A stretch of 64,000 nucleotides of DNA from Diplonema papillatum (Eukaryota; Euglenozoa; Diplonemea; Diplonemida; Diplonemidae), in the NCBI GenBank assembly GCA_030068145.1, contig JAPJBO010000516.1, positions 99,261-163,260 of the forward strand. The letters run 5' to 3'. The notes below the pieces were generated by a model. The model was not told the DNA's origin, searched no databases, and was given only the letters and a program-made list of their open reading frames with translations. Below, piece by piece: positions 7,617 through 64,000 of this stretch. Both the position numbers and the translations under genes were made by a program. Each line of letters starts with the position of its first letter. Within the stretch, counting starts at the first letter, position 1.

Positions 7617-8587
7617 TTGTGGGCAGAGGTGGTAAAGAGGTCACTACCTCGGAAACAAGACTTCGGGTGTCCCGATCAAGATCGGTTCCGAAGGGATCAG
7701 GAAGCACTCCTCCTCGCCGTGCAGAAATGCTACAAGAGCGCCCCTGCCATGCTGTCAGTGGTGAGCCGCGCTCAGAGATACGCGGAGGAGGCCCGACGCT
7801 TTCGCCCCACGTTATCCGACGAGGAAGCCTTCCTGATGTGGGTGAATCGGAAGGTGACGGCTGGCGAGATCAAGGTCGAGTCGGCTCTCCAGTACGTGAC
7901 CTACTTCCGGATGTCTCGGGTGAACTGGATGAGCGCATGCCGGCGCTCGGTCAGGCTGACCATGGATCAGTTCGAGGACCGACGTACCCGCGATGCCGGG
8001 CGGACCCCATCCAAAGAGGAGGTCCTACAGGTAGTCTCACGAGGCCCCGGCTTGCATACCATGGCCCTCCGGTCCTACAGGTAGTCTCACGAGGCCCCGG
8101 CTTGCATACCATGGCCCTCCGGTTCCAGTGGTCGACGGCGTGCCGGTTCGTGGACCTGCAACGGGTCCGGTTGGACCACATGTGGTCGGTGGACAAGCAA
8201 CAGGTCATGATCCTGTTTGTCGGCGGGAAGACCGACCCGACGTCCCGAGGACAGGGTCTCTTACTGCCACGAAGCGGGGCTTTTCTGACGCCTTTTTGGG
8301 AATGGATCACCATCCAACGCCCTGCCAGCGGCCCCAAGGCGTTCGTGTTCCCCAACCTGTCAAGACAGGCTTACAACAGTTTCCTTCAAGAGGAGCTGGG
8401 GGTTCCTTCACACAGGATCAGACATGCCGCGCTGACTTGGGTGGCTTTTGTGGAAGGAGAGCAAGCAGCGATGTGCGTAGGTCGTCACCTCAACCCCAGG
8501 ACGACGCGGCTGTACACGCCGCATCACCTTTGGCAGCCGGTCCAGCGGACAGTCCCGGGTACAGCTGCGCTGCAGAAAACCGACTGA
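7617..8587 (+). pseudogene. Tyrosine recombinase (integrase), frame broken by a 50-bp duplication
   Basis: Residues before about 8020 form a helical core-binding (SAM-like) domain in one frame. The catalytic domain continues in another frame to the stop at 8585-8587. Catalytic residues are recognisable: first Arg in ACRFVDLQ (near 8141), HRIRHAALTW (near 8410), the GRH of VGRHLNPRTTRLY (near 8483), and the nucleophilic Tyr in RLYTPHH (near 8512). The frame change coincides exactly with a tandem duplication of 50 bp (8021-8070 and 8071-8120). Because 50 is not a multiple of three, the duplication alone accounts for the disruption. The enzyme would integrate the circular cDNA of the element. 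Confidence 0.85.
8021..8120 (+). repeat. 50-bp tandem duplication inside the recombinase
   Basis: GGTCCTACAGGTAGTCTCAC starts at 8021 and again at 8071, and the two 50-bp units are identical. It shifts the recombinase frame by two bases. Confidence 0.97.
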
Positions 8588-8589
8588 AC

Positions 8590-10179
8590 GACCGCCCCGC
8601 TAAGCCTCCATTGTGGCCGCGCCACCTGGACAAGATCCTCCAGGGTTACGACTACGCCAACGGTTGGTTGGACGCCAGCAGTGGAAAACGCGTAACGAAA
8701 GCATCCTATGAAGGTGAAATAGCTTCGACGGCTCCGCCGTTCAGTCACGAAGCGCTCTTGCACGATTTTCCCGCTCTCCGGACCAACATGCGATGGTTAC
8801 TGGATTCCGAGTTCATCGGAAGCATGTTAAGACCGGGTTCGTTCGTATCCGGCCCTGGTCCGCGCAACTCACGAATGAGGCCGCACGTTGAGCGCTTGCT
8901 CGCGTTGAAGATCGCTGCGCCGGTCCCCAAGGCGGCTTCTTCCCGCTGGTTTCACGGCGCGTTTACGGTGGATAAACGGGCCCCCGGTCAGCTTCGGTTC
9001 ATCCTCAGCTGCGAGTCAATCAACCGGGCCACGGCACACGTGCCTTTGCCGCCCTGCGACCTACCCAGCTACGCCACCATCGTGAGTACGGTGCTGTCCC
9101 GCAAGTGGGTGGCTGAGTTCGACTTCCGCTCCTTTTTTTTCCAGTTTGCGCTGCCTCCAGAGGTCAGAAAGTATTTCTGTTTCCGTATTGAGGGCAGGCT
9201 GTTGTGGATGACGCGCCTGCCGATGGGCTACCGCGCTGCGCCTCAGGCGGCCCAGGCGGTCTCGCTGGAGCTTGCGGTTGCCGCCGCTCAGGGTGTGGAC
9301 GTTGAGGTTCTCGCGTGGATCGATAACGTGATATTTGTGGCGGACACTGAGGCCGAAGTTATAGAGGCCTCAGCTCGCTTCAAGGCTTTGACTTCGAAGT
9401 ACGGCTTGACCATCGGGAGCTGGTCCAAGCCTTCTACCCGGGCGGTGCTGCTGGGATTGGAAGTCGACCTCGCAGCGAAGAGATGGCGTGTGGACCCATC
9501 CTGGATAGGGAAGGCTGGACCGGTGATGGATCGCATCCGGGAGTGTAGTGAGGCTCCCGTCCGCGTGTGGTGGAAACTGACTGGGTCTCTGCTCTGGCGT
9601 CGCCACGTGATGGGGTACCCTCTCCACGAGGTACTTCTCCTCTTGCAGTGGATGTCAACCCTGGCTTCCGGCCGTTCGTCCACCGACAGCGCGTTCTGGG
9701 ACTCCGTCGCGCCTTGCCCAGCTGCGGTCAAGAGCTGCCTCGTTGCCCAGTGCTCCGACATGCGGGGTAACGCCTGGCGGCAATGGTGTAAACCGGTTTA
9801 CACTCGTTCGATCGATGTCGTCTCCGACGCCAGCATGTCGGCATGGGCCTTCGTGGCAGACGGGTCCCATGTCTACGGCGGTTTTCCTGCGGAGTTACTC
9901 CACGCGGACATCTTCATGAAGGAGCTATACGCCGTCGTTCGGGCCGTACAGCACGCGGTCCACGGCCAGTCGAGCGTGGACATCAACCTGCTGTGTGACA
10001 ACAAGGCGGTGATAGGCTGCGTACGCCGCGGCTACACGCTTCGTCAGGATGCGATGCAGCTGCTAACTCTGATCAACAAGAGCTTGGCCTCATCCAGGAG
10101 CCGGCTGAATATCAGCTACGTCCCGTCGCTCCAGAACATCGCGGATCAGTACACAAGACTAAATCGCCCGCAGTGCTAG
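8590..10179 (+). CDS. Reverse transcriptase-RNase H of the YR retroelement
   Basis: The frame is open from within the recombinase region to TAG at 10177-10179, with coding character from about 8600 (PPLWPRHLDKIL). No ATG occurs before about 8788, so translation may depend on frameshifting or fusion with the upstream ORF. RT blocks: RFILSCESIN, AEFDFRSFFFQFALP (first catalytic Asp), TRLPMGYRAAPQAAQ, and AWIDNVIF at 9313-9336, where the usual xDD catalytic box reads IDN. RNase H follows with Asp in VVSDASMSAWAF, Glu in MKELYAVV, Asp in LLCDNKAVIG and Asp in IADQYTR. The RNase H is complete. The Asn in the RT box is either a lineage feature or inactivating. Confidence 0.85.
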   Translation, partial: DRPAKPPLWPRHLDKILQGYDYANGWLDASSGKRVTKASYEGEIASTAPPFSHEALLHDFPALRTNMRWLLDSEFIGSMLRPGSFVSGPGPRNSRMRPHVERLLALKIAAPVPKAASSRWFHGAFTVDKRAPGQLRFILSCESINRATAHVPLPPCDLPSYATIVSTVLSRKWVAEFDFRSFFFQFALPPEVRKYFCFRIEGRLLWMTRLPMGYRAAPQAAQAVSLELAVAAAQGVDVEVLAWIDNVIFVADTEAEVIEASARFKALTSKYGLTIGSWSKPSTRAVLLGLEVDLAAKRWRVDPSWIGKAGPVMDRIRECSEAPVRVWWKLTGSLLWRRHVMGYPLHEVLLLLQWMSTLASGRSSTDSAFWDSVAPCPAAVKSCLVAQCSDMRGNAWRQWCKPVYTRSIDVVSDASMSAWAFVADGSHVYGGFPAELLHADIFMKELYAVVRAVQHAVHGQSSVDINLLCDNKAVIGCVRRGYTLRQDAMQLLTLINKSLASSRSRLNISYVPSLQNIADQYTRLNRPQC

Positions 10180-31469: not shown

Positions 31470-31640
31470 GGCGGGGAAAATCTTAGTTTAATGTTTAGGC
31501 TGAGCACTGCCTCTCATGCATGGTTGGTGCTAGCATCAAGTCTTCTTCGAGGAAGATGTCGTCTAGGAAAGGGATGCAAAATAGAAAGTGGTAAAAAGGG
31601 GAGTGTACGGCTCCCCAAAGTAGGGAAGGGGTGCACAAGG
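31470..31640 (+). repeat. PLE-tail-related repeat
   Basis: Begins GGGGAAAATCTTAGTTTAAT, with hairpins AGGC..GCCT, TTGGTGCTAGCATCAA and TCTTC..GAAGA, followed by GGGGAG..CTCCCC. It matches 50695-50840 over its length and the first ~75 bp of the PLE terminal repeats at 57713 and 63563. Confidence 0.85.
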
Positions 31641-50691: not shown

Positions 50692-50840
50692 CACGGGGGG
50701 GAAGTCTTGGTTTAATGTTTAGGCAGAGCACTGCCTCTCATGCATGGTTGATGCTAGCATCAAGTCTTCTTCGAGGAAGATGTTGGGATGCAATACAGAA
50801 AGAGGTAAAAAGGGGAGTGTACGGCTCCCAAAGTGGTATG
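50692..50840 (+). repeat. PLE-tail-related repeat
   Basis: GGTTTAATGTTTAGGCAGAG, CACTGCCTCTCATGCATGG, TTGATGCTAGCATCAA, CTTCTTCGAGGAAGA and GGGAGTGTACGGCTCCC. Same order and hairpins as at 31470-31640. Confidence 0.88.
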
Positions 50841-55774: not shown

Positions 55775-57440
55775 GCCAAAGACTTGTTCCGCAGGAAATC
55801 GATGGAGCCGAGGTATTTGTAGTCCGGAACCTCACGGAGGGAGGCCCCGTTACGGTACGTACAACTGGCGAACCCAGGACGACTACCTCTGTCTTGCCTA
55901 CGCCGTAGTTGACCTTCAGGCCATACTTCGCGGCTGCCGCAGTGAGCTTGTGCAGGAGAACTCTGGCTGCTTCTGCGGATCGGGCTATAAGAACAATGTC
56001 ATCGACAAATTCAAAGGTGCTTCAGGCGGATATGCCATCGTCCACACGTAGGACCAAAGCACACGCCCGCGTTCGAAATGTCCACCCCCTCAACTTCTCT
56101 CATGATCGCATCGATCACGGGGTTGAACAGCGTTGGGGCCAATGTGTCCCCTTGGAGGACGCCCGAGCAAAGCTCGATGGCCTCCGTTAGACCATAGGGC
56201 GTGCGAACCTGTGTTGTCGCCCCACGGTATGCACTAATGATAGCACTCCGGAGCGAATCCGGTACACCGTAGGCTCCGAGAAGTTTTTCCAATGCGGACC
56301 AGAAAACGCTGTCGAAAGCGGTCGAAAAGTCTACGAACACTAAAAGATCTTCGCCTTCCTTTTCCATCCTGATCTGCTGTACTACGCTTCTCAGGCAGAG
56401 GACGTGTTCAGACGTGCCCCTGCCTGGCCTTCCCCCATTCTGTGTTGGAACAAAGACGCTGTCAACTTGCCCAATTTGGTCACGTAGGGCCTGCCGGATC
56501 CTCCCTCGCAGTACTGCGTTGTACAGCTTCCCGCAGCACGATGCGAGGGTGATTTGGCGGTAGTTCCCTAAATCACGCCGGTTGCCTTTCTTGTACAGCG
56601 GTTGGGTCTCAGACCGCATCCACTCTGCAGGCGGTGCCTGCATGTACGCCTTCCGACAACACTCGGTGATCTTTTCTTGTACGTCAGGGACGCGCAAGAA
56701 TGCGTTCGGAACTCCATCCGGACCGGCCGCCTTGCTGACCTTAAGCCTACGAGAGGCACCCGCAACTTCAGAGATCGTGGGCGGTTCTGTCTTCCAGTCA
56801 AGGTTTCTGGCTATTAGTCGTGGTATCGCGGATGAGTCCTCACAATCGCCGTGTTGACTGCGGAGAGCTCGGAAGTGCGCATCGTACTCCCCCTTTGACA
56901 GAGGGGGGAGACAGGCACGACTCTTCCATAGGCAGGAAAGGGCCTTCCAGGCTGCGTGGGCCGATGTTCTTCAAAGAAACGCAGCAGGGTGGCTACAGGG
57001 CGTGCGGCTGCAGCGTTGTAGTCCGCGTTGCCTCCTTCCGGCGGTCCCAGCAAGGCTTTCTCGAGCTCTGGTGTCGGTAGCCGCGGCAGCTCACCAACAA
57101 GGGACCGTGACAAACTGCAGAACTCCTCATACGTGGCTGCACGGGTGAGAGTATCTGCTATCTTCGCTTCTAGTGGCGCGCTCCTTGCGACGCTAGCGAA
57201 GTCGGGCTTTGGGGGTGCGGGCCTCCTTGGGTCCGCGTATCTGACCCGAAGGGTCATCTCGACCATCTTGTGATCGGAGACGAGGGTACTGAACCACCGG
57301 CTAGGTTCGTAAGCTTCAGGCATACGTGGTCAATCATGCGATTTCTCCACGTTGGTCGCGCGCTGTGTTGTCTCATGGTCGCCGCACTCACGAGATCATT
57401 GGCGTGCATGAGGTCGCCTAGGCATCTTGCGGTGCATCGC
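55775..57440 (-). pseudogene. LINE (non-LTR retrotransposon) ORF2: endonuclease end plus reverse transcriptase
   Basis: Minus strand, in order: PTWRNRMIDHVCL and STLVSDHKMVEMTLR (end of an exonuclease-endonuclease-phosphatase-type endonuclease, SDH motif). Next a spacer of ~130 residues, then RT: KVSKAAGPDGVPNAFL, YKKGNRRDLGNYRQITLASC, QNGGRPGRGTSEHVL, VFVDFSTAFDSVFW (catalytic Asp), CSGVLQGDTLAPTLF, FEFVDDIVLIARS (FVDD box) and DYKYLGSIDFL. Frame changes occur within the endonuclease (~57300), before the RT (~56850), just before FVDD (~56040) and before the KYLG block (~55850), so the copy is inactive. It is 5'-truncated and loses its 3' end at 55775. Family within LINEs not assigned; the RNase H scraps at 15955 and 43480 may belong to relatives. 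Confidence 0.9.
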
Positions 57441-57464
57441 GGCGCGATGCGAGCGGCGCGGCGG

Positions 57465-57565
57465 CATCGTCGGGGGGGGGGGTTTGCAAGAACGTGCTTG
57501 GAATGGGTATGTGCTCAACACCGCACTGGTCCCGTCTGCGCCGTGTTTCGGTCCTTTAAGCCACG
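57465..57565 (+). repeat. R6 repeat (poly-G junction)
   Basis: G11 then TTTGCAAGAACGTGCTTGG, AATGGGTATGTGCTCAACAC, CGCACTGGTCCCGTCTGCGC. The reverse of 45600-45690. Confidence 0.88.
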
Positions 57566-57712
57566 GACACATAAGGCGGACCATCATCAGCGTGGAACCT
57601 GAGTGTCTGCAGACAGGACTGCGGCGTGAGTCTGGTTTGTCAGGCGGCTGTTCGTAGCTCGTCACAGCCAGGACCACCCGTGCTACAAGAGCACAGGCGA
57701 ATCCGTCACGTC

Positions 57713-58150
57713 GGGGGGAAAATCTTAGTTTCGTGTTCAGGCGCTACTTGCCTCTAAGTGTTTGATGCTAGCATCAAGTCTTCTTCGCGGAATGCAGAGT
57801 CTTTTTTCTTCTTTTTTTCTTTTTTTCCGTTTTCTGTTTTTTCTGTTCTTTCTTTCGTTGTCGCCAATTTCTTTTTTCTCCTTTTACTTCTAATTTTAAC
57901 TTTAATTTTCTTTACCATGGTATTTTTGGACTTTCTGGTGCCGTAGAGTAGTTCTTCTTTCTCTATGCCGCCCACGTCGATGTTCGTTTAGCAGCGGCTG
58001 CCGAATCATGCCGTGGCACCGTCCTTTTGTGCGTCTGCCTTGCTGAAGAAGTGTGGGAAAGGAGTCCAGGACTCCGTGGTTTGAAACCATGTGCTATGGC
58101 TTCACTTCCTCCTCCCTTCGTCCGTTTTTCTTTAAAAAAAGGGGGTTTAC
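57713..58150 (-). repeat. PLE terminal direct repeat, 3' copy
   Basis: GGGGGGAAAATCTTAGTTTC to the A/G-run at 58131-58147. Contains the palindrome TTGATGCTAGCATCAA, an AGGC..GCCT stem, T-rich tracts, and GCAGCGGCTGCCGAATCATG then CCGTGGCACC, which resembles the 3' end of R3. Identical to 63563-64000 except for poly-T length and a few bases. Confidence 0.93.
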
Positions 58151-58211
58151 AAATTGGGTTGTGGCTCGTAACCAACCGCCACGGGGCACTACTTCCACCA
58201 GGTGAAAGTGT

Positions 58212-61200
58212 TTACGCTTTCTCGAGAGAGATGACGTAGCCATTGGTTGTGAATCTCCTGGCACATTCCTCCCATGAGAGTACGGATACTTGCTGGTCGT
58301 CGTAGCATACCCATTCATCGTCTTCCTTTACCACGGTATAGTAATGACCTGCCGTTGCTCTTCCGGTGTGGATAATGAAGCCTTTTACCGTGTAGGAGTC
58401 TTCACCGATCAGTATGGTTTGTCGGATCGGGGTGCGGGCTGGTATTTTTATTTCTTCGCGTGTTTTTTTCGATAGCTGTGCTCGTTGCAGTAGTACATCC
58501 ATTTGCTTTGGAAATGTGTAATCTTCCTTCGTGGATCCAACGGTCTTTTTGTTACAGGTGCTACAGGGGAAGTCGTCCACTTTGGTTGCTCTCTTGTTTT
58601 GCACTTTCTTTATCAGATCCTCAACTGACTCGGTGTAGGGCTTCTCCCTGTTTTTGAGTTCAAGCATCAGGAACGGTTCTGACGCCGGCGATGCTCGTGA
58701 AGACTCTTTGCATATTGTGCACGTTGTCAAACGGGAGTATGTCACCGTAGCTTGGTCGTCGTCGTCGCCCGTCACGCAGGAGCGTATCCACGTCAGCAGT
58801 TCGTGCACGTCCCGATGCGCGGAGTCGTCTGCCGTCGTGTTGAACACGAGGCTCCGGAGTGTGGCCATTGTACCGTGGATGTTTTGGCCTGCGTCGAAAT
58901 CCGTGAACAGCCTCTGCACCATCTGCTGGTTGGTGTCCAGGTGCGTTAGGTTTGCGAGTTGTAGTCGGAAGGACGTCCTTCGCGCCAGGAACTGCACGCT
59001 GGCGGCGAAGAAACATGAGTTGCGAATGTTCGTTATGCCGTTGCGTCCAGGTGGGTTTGTTGGTTTCGTCGCAGGGTGCGTAGTGCTGGTGGGTTCGGAT
59101 TTGTGCGGCGACGTAGACTGCGGCGAGGTTCTCCCGGGTGGATGTTTCGGTGAGCCGTCGGGCGGTTGCGGCGTGCGGATGCTGATGTACGATTTTTCCT
59201 CGTTGGTCGGGCGACCTTCGTCATAGGCCTTTCCGACGAAGTGGTAAAACCGTGACAGCACTCGCGCATCTAATTCGTACTTTCCGTACGTTTGTGCCAC
59301 GAACGTGTCGAACGTGCGCCGGAGTTCCCGTCCAGAGAATCCTCGGTTCCGAAGTCTGTAGTACACCTTCATGACCTCGACCTTCAGATCTGGCATGTTG
59401 TTGCAGATGCGCGCTGCTCGGATCAGTGCGCCTTTGAAGATCGAGGTTCCGGTGTTTCGTGGTACCGTGGATTCGACGTGGGTGTACTTTATCGGATTCC
59501 AGGGGAATTCCTCACCCTTGTCCAGGACAGACATCCGAATGAAGTCCGTCTTGTCATTCCTCTCCATCCGGATCCGCATCCCCAAAAAGACTACGTCGTC
59601 GACACCTTTCGACGTTTCACCATACTCCATGCCGTAGATATCTTCCGGCGGTGGTCGAACACCCCAGGTCAGGAAGTCGTCAATGAATCTGACGCTGTCG
59701 GCGTGATTCCTGGCCTCTTCTTGCAATCCTTTCGCGACCAGGCCGTCGATGTACTGCTTTTCGCACCAGTAGCAGTATAAGTTGGCGAGGTCTGGGCTTG
59801 CATTGCCGCCCATGGGGATTCCGGATACCTGCTGGTAGCATGTTCCACCGTTGGTGACGAAGGTGTTACCAACAATGAAGCTGACCAGTGCTCGAATCTC
59901 TTCGACATTGTAGGAGGTCGTGTTCGATTCGTCTGGTTTCCCAAATTCGAAGCGGTGTTTGGCGCGCTGGGCTTCTACGTTCGCTCCTTTTTCGGACTTC
60001 ATGTACTCGAAAGCCTCTGCAACCGCAGACATAACATAGTCAACAATCTGCTTCTGCGGAATCTTCGTGTACATCTCTTTGAAGTCGAAGGTTCGTGGCG
60101 CTTTTTTGCGCAGTCGAGCGTAGTTCGTCTTTATGTGTACTGCTACGTCATCGACCGACTCCACGACGAAGAAACGACGTATCCCCGTTTGCAAAAACGT
60201 CGCTTCGTCCTTGCTTCGGAGCGTTGCTAGCACCAGCTTCAGCAAACCGGAGGCTTCTTGGTGTGCAGGGGTTGTGGATGCACGTGTCTTCATTCGTTTC
60301 TTGTCGCGGCCTTTTTCGTCTCGGTCCTTCTGTTCGTCTTTCTTCTCAACGTTTCCTTTCTCCGACACGCCGGCAATGTACCGCATCCGTGGTTCGGGTT
60401 TGTGGAGCTTCGGGATGCCGTAAAGGTACGGTAGGTTGTCGGTGTGTACGAACTTGTGTGACTTGTTGAAGTCACGGTGTCGTTCGAGCACGTCATCAAT
60501 CGACTCGCCAACTTCCTGGTACGTTGAACTCTGTTGTAATTCGTCCCGTAAGAGCTCCTTGTATTTTTCCTTGCAGATAAACCCGAAGTCATGGGACGTC
60601 TTATCTACAGGGAGAAACACGAGGTGCTCCTGGAGCTTCTTCAGGGTGCGTAAGGCGTCTCGGAGTTGAGGTTCGTCGGTGTGCGCGTTGAGAGTTCCAA
60701 GGACGGCGTCGAACTCTTCGACCAGAGTTGTTGAAAATCTGGTCTTCTCGTCCTCGCTCGCCTTCGGGAAATTCGAGTTCACGAATTCTTCGACGTCGTG
60801 TCTTATCGAGTCGTACATAGTCATCGGACTACTCGCGACCCGGTATTTTCGTCCTTTTCGAAAAAGTGAAAGGAGGGCTTCGTCAGTCTTCAGATCCGTT
60901 GCAAGTCCTAAAGCGTGTCCACCAAGATCCGGGCGGTGTGGTGTCATATGCTGCATGCATGGGCAAACCGAACCTGAGCTAGTCGGTTGATTCGCTTCGT
61001 AACTTACTTCGGTGACGTTGCTGACGAGGGTTACCAAAGGTGGCTTCAGGCGGTTGCTCACCATGAGGTTTTTGAGGACGGCCGGGTTGGGGCACGTTTC
61101 GCGAACCCGTGCGCGTGACAGGACGCCGGCAATTGCTGTCCGGTCTTGTGCCGGGTGATGATGCGTCAGCTTGAAATACCGTCGTGGGGGGGCCGCCGGT

Positions 61201-62723
61201 TTCTCGGTTCTGTTGCGGATGCGCGCACTGAGGAGTCGTTCAAGGATTCGTACTTTGTCTGTGACGTCTTTTCCTTGAACGAAGGTTCTCAGCCACGTGC
61301 GTAGGCGGAGGGCGCGATTGGGATGCCATGTTGACATGTCGTAGGTTCCCAGTCGGTCCTGTGGGAGTGTCAACAGGTGGTCCAACTGTTTCCTCAACCC
61401 AGAACAGAAGCCCGGGGAGGTGTCAATGTGGAGTTCGTCGTTTTCCATGCGGTGCCAGACGCTGCCGTCGGTGCGTCGTTTGCGGAGGCGTTGCGGTGGA
61501 CGTTGCCTCCTCTTCTTCTTTGCAGCCTTGTTGTTGACCCTCTCTCCCTGTCGCCGATTCGTCATGTTCAATGGCGGGTTTAGCCATTTGATCCAAAACT
61601 CTTCGATTGGGAGAGCCACGCGCGCGAAGTCAGCGGGCTGTGCGTACAGCCGTTCCGGAACATTCTGTATCGGACACGCGTAGAGCTTCCGGCCTCGCTT
61701 TCGTAATTGTTGCGATACACGGTTGCCCTTTGAGTTCCGATTTTCCCAGTGCTTGCTGTTTCGCACCTCGGCCGTCTTCGACGTCTGACCCACGTAGAGG
61801 ACGGTGCCCCCTTCGTTCAGAAGTACGTAGATCACTCCCGTCGTGTTGTCGGCGACGTCGCTTCGGTCGGTTCCGCATTTGTTCCGCCCATTCGACACTT
61901 TTGTGCCGTATCGCTTCCAGAAGATTTCGATCGCGCTTTTTCTTCGGCTTCCGTGATCGTCGTCGTCGTCGTCAGGGTGGCGGCGCGTGTGGACAAAAGC
62001 GGCGAGGAAACGAGTGTCAGATTTGGGCCGGTTTGTTTTTTGTTTTCGCCGTTCTTTTCTGTTGGCGCGTGCACTTTTATTGTTTTTTTGGTTTTTTTGG
62101 TTTTTTTCGTTTTGTTTTTTTGCCTCAGAGTCACGTGGTCGTTCTTCCGATTTTTCTTGGCGGCGTTTTCGTGCTTGTGCTCTGGGTTTTTCTTTTTGCG
62201 GCCTCTTTTGTTCGCGCTCCTTTTGTCGATCGTTGTGAACCGGGTGGCTAGTCGTTCCACGGTTCCTCTGTTCTGGGGCTGCTTGGGGTCTGGAAAGACC
62301 TTTCTCGCAGGGCTTCTTTGTTTTGGGGGCCGCTTGGGGTCTGGGGTGACCTTTGTCGCAGCGTTTCTCTTCCTTTCCCTCTCTCCGTGTCGCTGGGAAA
62401 CGACCAACAAGTTCAGGTCCTTCCTGGGAGTGGCGCTGTCGGAAAATAAGGCATTCGTCATCTGTCCGAATCGGATATCCGACGACTACCTTAGCGTCTG
62501 TTCCGTCGAGTTCATCATCAAAGTAGTTAACTTTCATGTTATCGGACTCGGTGGTGGTAGACGACGCAGCACTCCGCCTCGAATGGTTGTGCTTCCTAGG
62601 CACTTTCAATGGCGATTTAGAGACGGGTGTGGGATTTTTTATTTTGGGTCTATCAACGTGTCGGGCTGACAGGTCCAAAAGCGGTCCTGCGGCGTTTTTT
62701 AGGGCCACACGGCAAGGGGCCAT
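58212..62723 (-). CDS. PLE polyprotein: GIY-YIG nuclease - reverse transcriptase - ubiquitin-specific protease
   Basis: 1,503 codons from ATG (62721-62723), no interruption. Residues 1-290: basic, low complexity. ~294-390: GIY-YIG endonuclease with GVIYVLL, VLYVGQTS, Arg in AEVRNSKHW, Glu in PIEEFWIKWLNPPLN. ~585: Cys/His cluster VCPCMQHM. ~700-1170: PLE-type RT with PVDKTSHDFGF (the PLE 'DKG' region), PYLYGIPKLHKPEPRMR, DFKEMYTKIP, QVSGIPMGGNASP and the catalytic RFIDDFL; a Lys/Glu-rich insert of ~25 residues follows YIAGVSEKGN. ~1170-1225: Pro-rich linker. ~1228-1503: USP-type deubiquitinase with Cys box NGITNIRNSCFFAASVQFL (Cys ~1237), HRDVHELLTWI, two CxxC pairs (CTIC, CSTC) and His/Asp box GRATAGHYYTVV, WVCYDDQQVSVL (His ~1460, Asp ~1475). 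The RT copies RNA primed at a nick made by GIY-YIG; the USP would cleave ubiquitin conjugates, plausibly protecting the element's own protein. N-terminal placement of GIY-YIG recalls the Naiad/Chlamys-type PLEs with permuted domains. Confidence 0.93.
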   Translation of the reverse strand: MAPCRVALKNAAGPLLDLSARHVDRPKIKNPTPVSKSPLKVPRKHNHSRRSAASSTTTESDNMKVNYFDDELDGTDAKVVVGYPIRTDDECLIFRQRHSQEGPELVGRFPATRREGKEEKRCDKGHPRPQAAPKTKKPCEKGLSRPQAAPEQRNRGTTSHPVHNDRQKEREQKRPQKEKPRAQARKRRQEKSEERPRDSEAKKQNEKNQKNQKNNKSARANRKERRKQKTNRPKSDTRFLAAFVHTRRHPDDDDDDHGSRRKSAIEIFWKRYGTKVSNGRNKCGTDRSDVADNTTGVIYVLLNEGGTVLYVGQTSKTAEVRNSKHWENRNSKGNRVSQQLRKRGRKLYACPIQNVPERLYAQPADFARVALPIEEFWIKWLNPPLNMTNRRQGERVNNKAAKKKRRQRPPQRLRKRRTDGSVWHRMENDELHIDTSPGFCSGLRKQLDHLLTLPQDRLGTYDMSTWHPNRALRLRTWLRTFVQGKDVTDKVRILERLLSARIRNRTEKPAAPPRRYFKLTHHHPAQDRTAIAGVLSRARVRETCPNPAVLKNLMVSNRLKPPLVTLVSNVTEVSYEANQPTSSGSVCPCMQHMTPHRPDLGGHALGLATDLKTDEALLSLFRKGRKYRVASSPMTMYDSIRHDVEEFVNSNFPKASEDEKTRFSTTLVEEFDAVLGTLNAHTDEPQLRDALRTLKKLQEHLVFLPVDKTSHDFGFICKEKYKELLRDELQQSSTYQEVGESIDDVLERHRDFNKSHKFVHTDNLPYLYGIPKLHKPEPRMRYIAGVSEKGNVEKKDEQKDRDEKGRDKKRMKTRASTTPAHQEASGLLKLVLATLRSKDEATFLQTGIRRFFVVESVDDVAVHIKTNYARLRKKAPRTFDFKEMYTKIPQKQIVDYVMSAVAEAFEYMKSEKGANVEAQRAKHRFEFGKPDESNTTSYNVEEIRALVSFIVGNTFVTNGGTCYQQVSGIPMGGNASPDLANLYCYWCEKQYIDGLVAKGLQEEARNHADSVRFIDDFLTWGVRPPPEDIYGMEYGETSKGVDDVVFLGMRIRMERNDKTDFIRMSVLDKGEEFPWNPIKYTHVESTVPRNTGTSIFKGALIRAARICNNMPDLKVEVMKVYYRLRNRGFSGRELRRTFDTFVAQTYGKYELDARVLSRFYHFVGKAYDEGRPTNEEKSYISIRTPQPPDGSPKHPPGRTSPQSTSPHKSEPTSTTHPATKPTNPPGRNGITNIRNSCFFAASVQFLARRTSFRLQLANLTHLDTNQQMVQRLFTDFDAGQNIHGTMATLRSLVFNTTADDSAHRDVHELLTWIRSCVTGDDDDQATVTYSRLTTCTICKESSRASPASEPFLMLELKNREKPYTESVEDLIKKVQNKRATKVDDFPCSTCNKKTVGSTKEDYTFPKQMDVLLQRAQLSKKTREEIKIPARTPIRQTILIGEDSYTVKGFIIHTGRATAGHYYTVVKEDDEWVCYDDQQVSVLSWEECARRFTTNGYVISLEKA

Positions 62724-63562
62724 CGTGTGGTTACAACATCCATGAGGTCGGTATCAGTTCGGGTCTCCGTCGTTGCCCGGGGTTCTGGTTTCCCTGGTCT
62801 TGCTGCACTGGTGTGGATGGCACCTGTGCTTTTCTGTACCCTTTTTAGTTGGGGTATTTTTGCTTAGAAAGGACCCTGGAGTTCGTCCGTTCGTCTTCTT
62901 CCTGTCAGTTGTGAATGGCTGCCCCGACAAGAGCCACTGACGGGGAGTTGGCTTGGGGCTCGCTCAAAGGTTGTTCTAAGCTGGGGGAAAAAGTGGGGCG
63001 CAGGAAGGTTGACAGCCTTCCTCTCTGACGCGGGGTTGCGGGGCGGGGGTAAAATAAAACTTTTACTTTGCATCGGGGCCGGTACCGTATGGCGCTCGAA
63101 AGTACTGTAGTGGTACCGGCCGCGGCCAACAAAGGGATGCGGGGTTTTGCTTCCGGCTATCAGTCCCTGTGCTGCAGAGAAGCTGGGACGTCACATTTTG
63201 CATCCGGTAGGCGGGACGGGGGTAGGCAGCTGAGTGCTTTGTTTTCCGTTTCGCCACCCGGAAGACTGTTCTTTGTTGGGAAATGAAGGAGGGAAGAGAA
63301 TAACTGGCAATTGACCTTTTCCCGCGTAGACAACGCGGTCCTTTCCAAATCTCGCCTTGTTTTGGGAATTCGGAGGTGGGGTGTTGTCAGTTCGATGCTG
63401 TTTATTGGGCCGTTCTCCTGCCGGTGCTGCTTTACTGCAGTCGGCCAGAGTTTTCCTATCTTCGTAGGTTGTTGGGTATTCCCTTGTTTTTGGGGAACTG
63501 TTGTCTTCTCCATTGGAGAGCAGAGTAAGACCTGTGTCTTCAGAAGACCGGCATACTCCGTA
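62724..63562 (-). other. PLE leader, non-coding
   Basis: Between the 5' direct repeat and the ORF. No domain-bearing frame. It holds an imperfect GGTACCGTATGGCGC / AGTAGTGGTACCGGCC pair near 63080-63122. Promoter activity would be expected here or in the terminal repeat, but no motif is identifiable. Confidence 0.5.
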
Positions 63563-64000
63563 GGGGGGAAAATCTTAGTTTCGTGTTCAGGCGCTACTTG
63601 CCTCTAAGTGTTTGATGCTAGCATCAAGTCTTCTTCGCGGAATGCAGAGTCTTTTTTCTTCTTTTTTTCTTTTTTTTTCCGTTTTCTGTTTTTTCTGTTC
63701 TTTCTTTCGTTGTCGCCAATTTCTTTTTTCTCCGTTTACTTCTAATTTTAACTTTAATTTTCTTTACCATGGTATTTTTGGACTTTCTGGTGCCGTAGAG
63801 TAGTTCTTCTTTCTCTATGCCGCCCACGTCGATGTTCGTTTAGCAGCGGCTGCCGAATCATGCCGTGGCACCGTCCTTTTGTGCGTCTGCCTTGCTGAAG
63901 AAGTGTGGGAAAGGAGTCCAGGACTCCGTGGTTTGAAACCATGTGCTATGGCTTCACTTCCTCCTCCCTTCGTCCGTTTTTCTTTTTAAAAAAAGGGGGT
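63563..64000 (-). repeat. PLE terminal direct repeat, 5' copy (cut by window end)
   Basis: Direct copy of 57713-58150. The poly-T near 63665 is 2 bp longer and one base differs in CTCCGTTTACTTC. It continues to the end of the window. Confidence 0.93.

Follow-up and report, generated by a model that had tools for sequence, protein, structure and literature searches.

A Penelope-like element of Diplonema papillatum whose protein ends in a predicted USP-type deubiquitinase

The locus described here raises the question of why a protein predicted to nick DNA and copy RNA should end in an enzyme of the kind that removes ubiquitin. The window, i.e., the whole stretch of DNA analysed, comprises 64,000 nucleotides of the diplonemid Diplonema papillatum (GenBank assembly GCA_030068145.1, contig JAPJBO010000516.1, forward-strand positions 99,261 to 163,260) and carries, at 58212-62723 on the minus strand, one long open reading frame (ORF) in which a GIY-YIG endonuclease, a reverse transcriptase (RT) of the Penelope-like element (PLE) type, and a USP-type cysteine protease follow one another. 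We read this locus as a PLE of the N-terminal-endonuclease type whose USP domain would act in cis on the element's own protein or ribonucleoprotein (RNP), a reading in which we place about even confidence.

The ORF consists of 1,503 codons, starts with ATG, and contains no internal stops; all features of the element given below lie on the minus strand. The frame opens with a basic low-complexity N-terminus (residues 1-285, 61869..62723), which was matched to a relative only by its last 20 residues and which also holds an imperfect tandem repeat (43 nt, 84%) at 62275-62368. The GIY-YIG endonuclease follows at residues 296-383 (61575..61838; Pfam PF01541, E=7.7e-6, 26.6 bits against a cut-off of 22.6), and residues 286-399 are 84% identical to the relative P0007 by blastp. 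Between nuclease and RT, a CxC motif (CPC) was read at residues 587-589 (60957..60965). The RT occupies residues 641-1175 (59199..60803). Since Pfam RVT_1 (PF00078) matched the ORF weakly (E=0.043, 13.9 bits, under the cut-off of 29.6), the identity of the RT rests on relatives and motifs, namely motif A (TFDFKEMYT from residue 878), GIPMGG..SPDLANLY, and motif C (RFIDD at 1012), together with blastp alignments of residues 641-1180 to a set of 33 proteins, which gave 23-81% identity over 260-552 columns with near-copies excluded. A Pro-rich linker (residues 1176-1227, 59043..59198) leads to the USP domain at residues 1229-1497 (58233..59039).

The USP domain matched Pfam UCH (PF00443) at 58.2 bits against a cut-off of 23.9 (E=1.3e-15), spanning profile positions 2-251 of 254, and reached 61.7 bits against the same cut-off when scanned on its own. 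A match over the full domain at E=1e-15, sharing its frame with an RT and a nuclease, does not arise by chance. The Cys box NSCFF lies at 1235-1239 with Cys1237, GHYY at 1459-1462 with His1460, and CYDD at 1473-1476, of which we take the first D, Asp1475, to be the catalytic Asp by USP numbering. Two zinc-type cysteine pairs (C1335xxC1338 and C1387xxC1390) and a QDAHE-like box (D1305..E1308) are also present, and the best PDB sequence match of the window protein alone was USP15. An earlier reading of this DNA from the sequence only had proposed exactly this arrangement, with nuclease, PLE RT, linker, and USP in one intact frame, a complete-looking triad, a two-CxxC zinc ribbon, and near-identical terminal repeats; the ORF, the Pfam matches, and the motifs bear out the architecture, all three catalytic residues and four cysteines are in place, the proposed profile search of the USP part gave a strong match over almost the full profile, and the repeats agree at 98.64% over 442 columns. 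We infer a domain that looks catalytically competent, with predicted activity on ubiquitin. A host USP gene merely adjoining a PLE was ruled out, as the USP is in frame and lies inside the terminal repeats.

Deubiquitinases of related elements and their history

Three protein searches yielded 33 proteins, 31 of which contain a PLE RT or part of one, the remaining two (P0032, P0033) being plain USPs. The Pfam scan covered 26 of the 31; P0002, P0003, P0005, P0006, and P0029 were judged from precomputed domains and sequence reading. Above the cut-off, six of the 31 carry a USP, two a Josephin domain (P0011, P0021), and one an OTU domain (P0024). Ten more (P0010, P0012-P0020) belong to the same RT clade as P0011 and P0021 and have C-termini that align with theirs, eight are broken D. 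papillatum gene models, and four show no deubiquitinase. Pattern searches for relatives in viral and prokaryote genome contigs matched 1, 13, 21, and 86 stretches, none of which was confirmed.

The USP-bearing proteins are representatives of clusters, and it is the representatives that were read (member sequences: P0001 18, P0004 7, P0023 11, P0008 1, P0009 3, P0027 14). P0001, a GenBank protein of D. papillatum, is 99% identical to the RT-USP part of the window protein. D. papillatum has two further USP-bearing families, represented by P0004 and P0023, with RTs 81% and 37% identical to that of the window. Additionally, a PLE RT together with a USP was found in the transcript P0008, whose EukProt prefix Rhum we take to mean Rhynchopus humris, and in P0009 (JGI) and P0027 (ENA); the nuclease of P0027 falls just below the Pfam cut-off and shows, by eye, a Naiad-like Cys/His cluster. 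When trimmed, 6/6 PLE USP domains matched Pfam UCH. They agree fully at 12 columns, to which the catalytic Cys and His, the second Asp of DD, and 3/4 zinc cysteines belong, and P0004, P0008, P0023, P0009, and P0027 all retain Cys, His, and Asp or Asn, the Asn being that of P0027 at the catalytic Asp position, a replacement that USPs allow. The recurrence of the domain in these five proteins supports the proposal that it is selected and not a chance fusion. A profile of the six domains matched USP12 best among PDB sequences (131.9 bits, E=3.1e-37). Outside the window family (A) and that of P0004 (B), the window USP is approximately 16-30% identical to the relatives compared. Between families A and B, identity amounts to 432/535 residues in the RT, 22/49 (44.9%) in the linker, and 187/275 (68.0%) in the USP; the USP is thus more conserved than the adjoining linker, which argues, from protein identity, for constraint on it. 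The third D. papillatum family (P0023) has a tail beyond the USP with a C2H2-like finger by eye, and the gene model P0025 keeps a tail of this type with the USP absent.

Regarding the other deubiquitinase kinds, Josephin exceeded the Pfam cut-off in 2/12 clade members as whole proteins, and 4/6 trimmed Josephin-like pieces matched Josephin at E<=1 (best E=4.3e-12, 46.6 bits). Among the Josephin-like rows, the Cys was found in 11/12, His-Trp/Tyr in 12/12, and an acid four residues past the following Trp in 11/12, with P0016 ending too early. The OTU domain of P0024 scored 33.8 bits against a cut-off of 23.3 and has the DGSC and HF motifs. In two JGI PLE proteins, a DnaJ domain is situated downstream of the deubiquitinase, beside the OTU in P0024 (residues 1326-1389, 68.6 bits) and beside the USP in P0009 (residues 1116-1179, 71.1 bits). 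The NCBIfam scan returned DnaJ for P0024 and RT hits that were weak and far under the cut-offs; phmmer against PDB gave no hit for P0021 at E<=1 or for P0027 at E<=0.01. In 7/7 USP, 12/12 Josephin-like, and 1/1 OTU rows, the catalytic His is followed immediately by an aromatic residue; an aromatic gatekeeper at this place has been tied to cleavage after the Gly-Gly of ubiquitin-like proteins in passages of Hermanns et al. (PMC7391069). A GIY-YIG match was obtained above the cut-off in P0007, P0023, P0028, and P0030 and below it in P0010, P0022, P0027, and P0031. The CxC motif precedes the RT in P0007, P0008, P0010-P0012, P0014-P0017, P0019-P0023, P0026, P0027, and P0031 and is absent there in P0024 and P0030, with P0001, P0004, P0009, P0013, and P0018 starting too late to be judged.

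Eight D. papillatum proteins lack a full USP (P0002, P0003, P0005, P0006, P0007, P0025, P0028, P0029) and bear on whether copies lacking the domain exist in the same genome. P0002 (DIPPA_01893) is the gene model of the present locus, and its 1,049 residues were read exactly end to end from the minus-strand stretches 60824-58722, 55222-55124, 54035-53448, and 52132-51776. In this model, the RT and a portion of the USP run on into unrelated downstream exons, and the remaining USP is omitted, the genomic frame being intact. Likewise, P0003, P0005, P0006, P0007, and P0029 join the element to UNC93-like, TPR, dynein-like, membrane-protein-like, and RRP12-like sequence, and P0002, P0003, P0005, and P0006 all exit the USP within residues 1326-1334. 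We read the eight as gene models cut short or fused to unrelated sequence and not as USP-less copies, a reading checked on DNA for P0002 and on protein for the other seven. The pattern named by the sequence-only reading as speaking against it, i.e., copies lacking the USP together with a host USP gene ending at the junction, did not appear among these eight proteins. The models that cut the USP may reflect either mis-annotation or real splicing. The transposon origin does explain misleading GenBank names such as that of P0004, 'Ubiquitin carboxyl-terminal hydrolase 26'.

Phylogenies of the RT were built from 23 of 32 rows including the window (without P0001-P0003 and P0005-P0007, which are near-copies, and the broken gene models P0025, P0028, and P0029) and from 16 rows, for which P0012-P0017 and P0031, a very long protein, were also set aside. 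In both trees, the four USP rows of diplonemids grouped together (93/90 with 23 rows, 89/92 with 16), as did P0024, P0009, and P0026, the last presumably from Euglena, judging by its EukProt label (97/92 and 91/93). The Josephin type formed one clade (100/100), and P0027 grouped with the Naiad-like P0022 and P0030 (99/98 and 100/99). The trees hold no rows of named PLEs or telomerases; by blastp within the set of 33, the window RT matched the Naiad-like P0022 at E=6.7e-29. Uniting the six USP rows as one RT clade was rejected, at a cost of 90 log-likelihood units (approximately unbiased test, p=1.8e-11), and so was a clade of the diplonemids plus P0009, a grouping chosen after the first tree (cost 36, p=4.4e-4); these p values are not to be taken literally, given several long branches and the partial RT of P0009. 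As the USP-bearing elements do not form one clade on the RT tree, gains or exchanges of different deubiquitinase kinds appear to have happened repeatedly, and the USP itself may have been captured once or several times. It is possible, and in our view somewhat doubtful, that a single deubiquitinase was present in an ancestral PLE and later lost or swapped in some lines. The grouping of the diplonemid USP rows fits such a history, and the tree of eight USP rows, which gave no resolved branching, is compatible with a single group of all six PLE USPs (p=0.505) and also with their mixing with host USPs. Both rejections on the RT tree speak against it, and Josephin and OTU, being different families, must at least have come separately.

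Several observations weigh against the reading favoured here. The search regions included the deubiquitinase part, so carriers were favoured, and the RT similarity of every deubiquitinase carrier holds independently by RT-only blastp. P0022, P0026, P0030, and P0031 have a PLE RT and no deubiquitinase on the Pfam scan, from which it follows that the deubiquitinase is not essential for all such PLEs. P0008, P0009, and P0024 show no nuclease in the available sequence. P0018 is without the Josephin Cys, and a profile of six Josephin-like pieces against PDB gave nine hits with no Josephin among them (best, a PUF4 chain at E=0.0071); the Josephin assignment draws on Pfam and motifs. For P0024, phmmer against PDB returned DnaJ chains, with OTU1 as the match of its OTU domain only at E=0.13. 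In several GenBank gene models, that of this locus included, a portion of the USP is spliced out, and between families A and B the USP has changed more quickly (68% identity) than the RT (81%). This faster pace and the four relatives showing no deubiquitinase would be expected if the USP were a passenger, i.e., host sequence captured once and tolerated as a dispensable C-terminal tail, and passages of PMC3846280 describe PLEs as able to capture host DNA. We consider a passenger improbable, because the catalytic residues are retained in 7/7 USP rows while the adjoining linker diverged and because three unrelated deubiquitinase families occur at the same place in relatives.

Possible roles of the deubiquitinase

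According to the cis reading that we favour, a single element protein would nick DNA by its GIY-YIG domain and copy RNA by its RT, and its C-terminal USP would strip ubiquitin from that same protein or from the RNP. The particle could thereby avoid quality control and destruction by the proteasome while it enters the nucleus and carries out target-primed copying. Because the enzyme shares a polypeptide with the nuclease and the RT, the nearest substrates would be the element's own protein and its binding partners, and the DnaJ domains beside the USP or OTU in two relatives fit a role in proteostasis. That three unrelated families of deubiquitinase have been exchanged speaks for ubiquitin removal itself, and not for any one partner interaction, as what would be kept, and their recurrent uptake suggests that ubiquitin removal may matter for element movement. 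More tentatively, a whole branch of PLEs might depend on a built-in deubiquitinase, with USP, Josephin, and OTU interchangeable and captured from hosts at least three to five times. If this were true, the elements would face one shared problem, namely host ubiquitylation of the RT-nuclease particle or of the target, and the deubiquitinase module, accompanied by a J-domain in some, would be as integral to the machinery as the nuclease.

Alternatively, the deubiquitinase could act at the target, where it would deubiquitinate histones, PCNA, or repair factors at the nick and so ease integration or quiet the damage response. We rank this close second to protection in cis and regard it, on its own, as rather unlikely. 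The enzyme is tied to a nuclease-RT located at the target, and the best PDB sequence matches of the PLE USP set, P0023, and P0008 are USP12/46/36, a similarity of names only, the window alone matching USP15. USP12/46/36 are partly nuclear. OTU and Ulp1 proteases of DNA transposons have, in addition, been proposed to act on repair factors in passages of Bao et al. (PMC2836005). On the other side, the sequence indicates no chromatin substrate, and the J-domains of P0009 and P0024 suit proteostasis better. That the cysteine protease instead processes the element's own polyprotein in the style of a retroviral protease, and not ubiquitin, is suggested by its position within a long multi-domain protein; we judge this highly improbable, as the gatekeeper aromatic and the family membership indicate cleavage after the Gly-Gly of ubiquitin-like proteins and the ORF contains no ubiquitin-like domain (Pfam, E<=1).

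Ubiquitin control of retroelements is known mostly from the host side. A class of elements that took up unrelated deubiquitinases again and again and retained their active-site residues would supply evidence from nature that ubiquitin hinders retrotransposition by telomerase-related RTs, and a point mutation of Cys1237 would offer a direct handle on the role of deubiquitination. With this element, PLEs bearing an extra enzyme are also recorded from diplonemids, which are abundant marine flagellates.

Terminal repeats and neighbouring sequences

The element is bounded by direct terminal repeats (pseudo long terminal repeats, pseudo-LTRs) at 63559..64000 upstream and 57709..58146 downstream, which differ by 2 mismatches and 4 gaps in 442 columns. 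The upstream copy is truncated by the window end, and the 3' end of the element lies near 57713. The stretch between the upstream repeat and the ORF (62724..63558) is taken as 5' untranslated by position only. Since the frame is intact and the repeats are near-identical, the element is probably a recent insertion. A perfect 16-base palindrome, TTGATGCTAGCATCAA, is situated near the 3' end of both repeats, at 57762-57777 and at the equivalent site of the upstream copy; palindromes in the pLTRs of rotifer Penelope elements are described in passages of PMC3846280. The palindrome recurs in the fragment 50694-50778, which, like the fragment 31473-31554, lies on the minus strand and is approximately 80% identical to the last ~80 bases at the 3' end of the element. 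By eye, the two fragments share further similarity upstream, and they are probably ends of a related PLE family. Regarding a hammerhead ribozyme in the repeats, the sole Rfam match in 56500-64000 was NPPA-AS1_1 at 56934-57118, which was under the gathering score (E=1.2) and outside the element. Elsewhere in the window, a 683-codon ORF at 8128-10179 (+) encodes another reverse transcriptase, distinct from that of the element (Pfam RVT_1, E=2.5e-8).

Comparison with known systems

PLEs with an N-terminal endonuclease, Naiad and Chlamys, in which a CxC motif stands between nuclease and RT, were reportedly described in Craig et al. 2021, a paper cited in PMC11167929, PMC8969392, PMC9033089, and PMC12477816. 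The present element shares with them the N-terminal GIY-YIG domain, the CxC motif, a probable PLE-type RT, direct pseudo-LTRs, and the lack of a hammerhead by Rfam, and, like Chlamys, for which none is known, it shows by eye no Cys/His cluster in the nuclease. In contrast, it carries a C-terminal USP (its relatives a Josephin domain, or OTU plus DnaJ) and resides in a diplonemid (Euglenozoa). By the N-terminal position of its nuclease, as judged from sequence, it belongs with the Naiad/Chlamys-type PLEs and not with canonical PLEs, and the phenomenon is wider than the USP. A C-terminal USP, Josephin, or OTU domain is not known to be part of the account in Craig et al. 2021.

The sequence-only reading had known of no described PLE with a USP. 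This agrees with the titles and abstract starts among the open-access literature matches listed, which did not cover Craig et al. 2021 and contained no PLE with a deubiquitinase. Passages of PMC12477816, which do not mention ubiquitin, present the Chlamys-type PLEs of Ectocarpus as the first known in TSAR, and the main text of the D. papillatum genome paper (PMC10161547) names neither Penelope nor ubiquitin. Ubiquitin and SUMO proteases in mobile elements are already known; among the matches listed, a PLE carrying a deubiquitinase was not seen and is apparently new.

When compared to cellular USPs (USP15, USP12/46, USP36, USP21), the PLE USPs agree in the catalytic residues, the two CxxC pairs, and the whole-domain profile match and differ in being fused to an RT. 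Among retroelements, the NeSL and Utopia non-LTR (long terminal repeat) retrotransposons carry an N-terminal Ulp1-like protease according to passages of PMC4640811. As in our element, the protein of these retroelements is joined to a protease that belongs to the ubiquitin-like-modifier type; theirs is an N-terminal Ulp1 (SUMO) in a non-LTR element with a restriction-like endonuclease, whereas here USP, Josephin, or OTU is found. Sections of PMC2836005 describe OTU or Ulp1 in Ginger1, Ulp1 in Mutator-like elements, OTU in Helitrons, and a Trichomonas vaginalis IS5-like transposase with a Peptidase C19 (USP) domain, and OTU or Ulp1 in Ginger1, Mutator-like, and Helitron/Helentron transposons also emerges from that source taken with parts of PMC6431247. 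As in the present PLEs, a ubiquitin or SUMO protease is fused or C-terminal in these elements, and its family differs among related elements. Those elements are DNA transposons, whereas the element of D. papillatum is RT-based and belongs to the telomerase-related PLE class.

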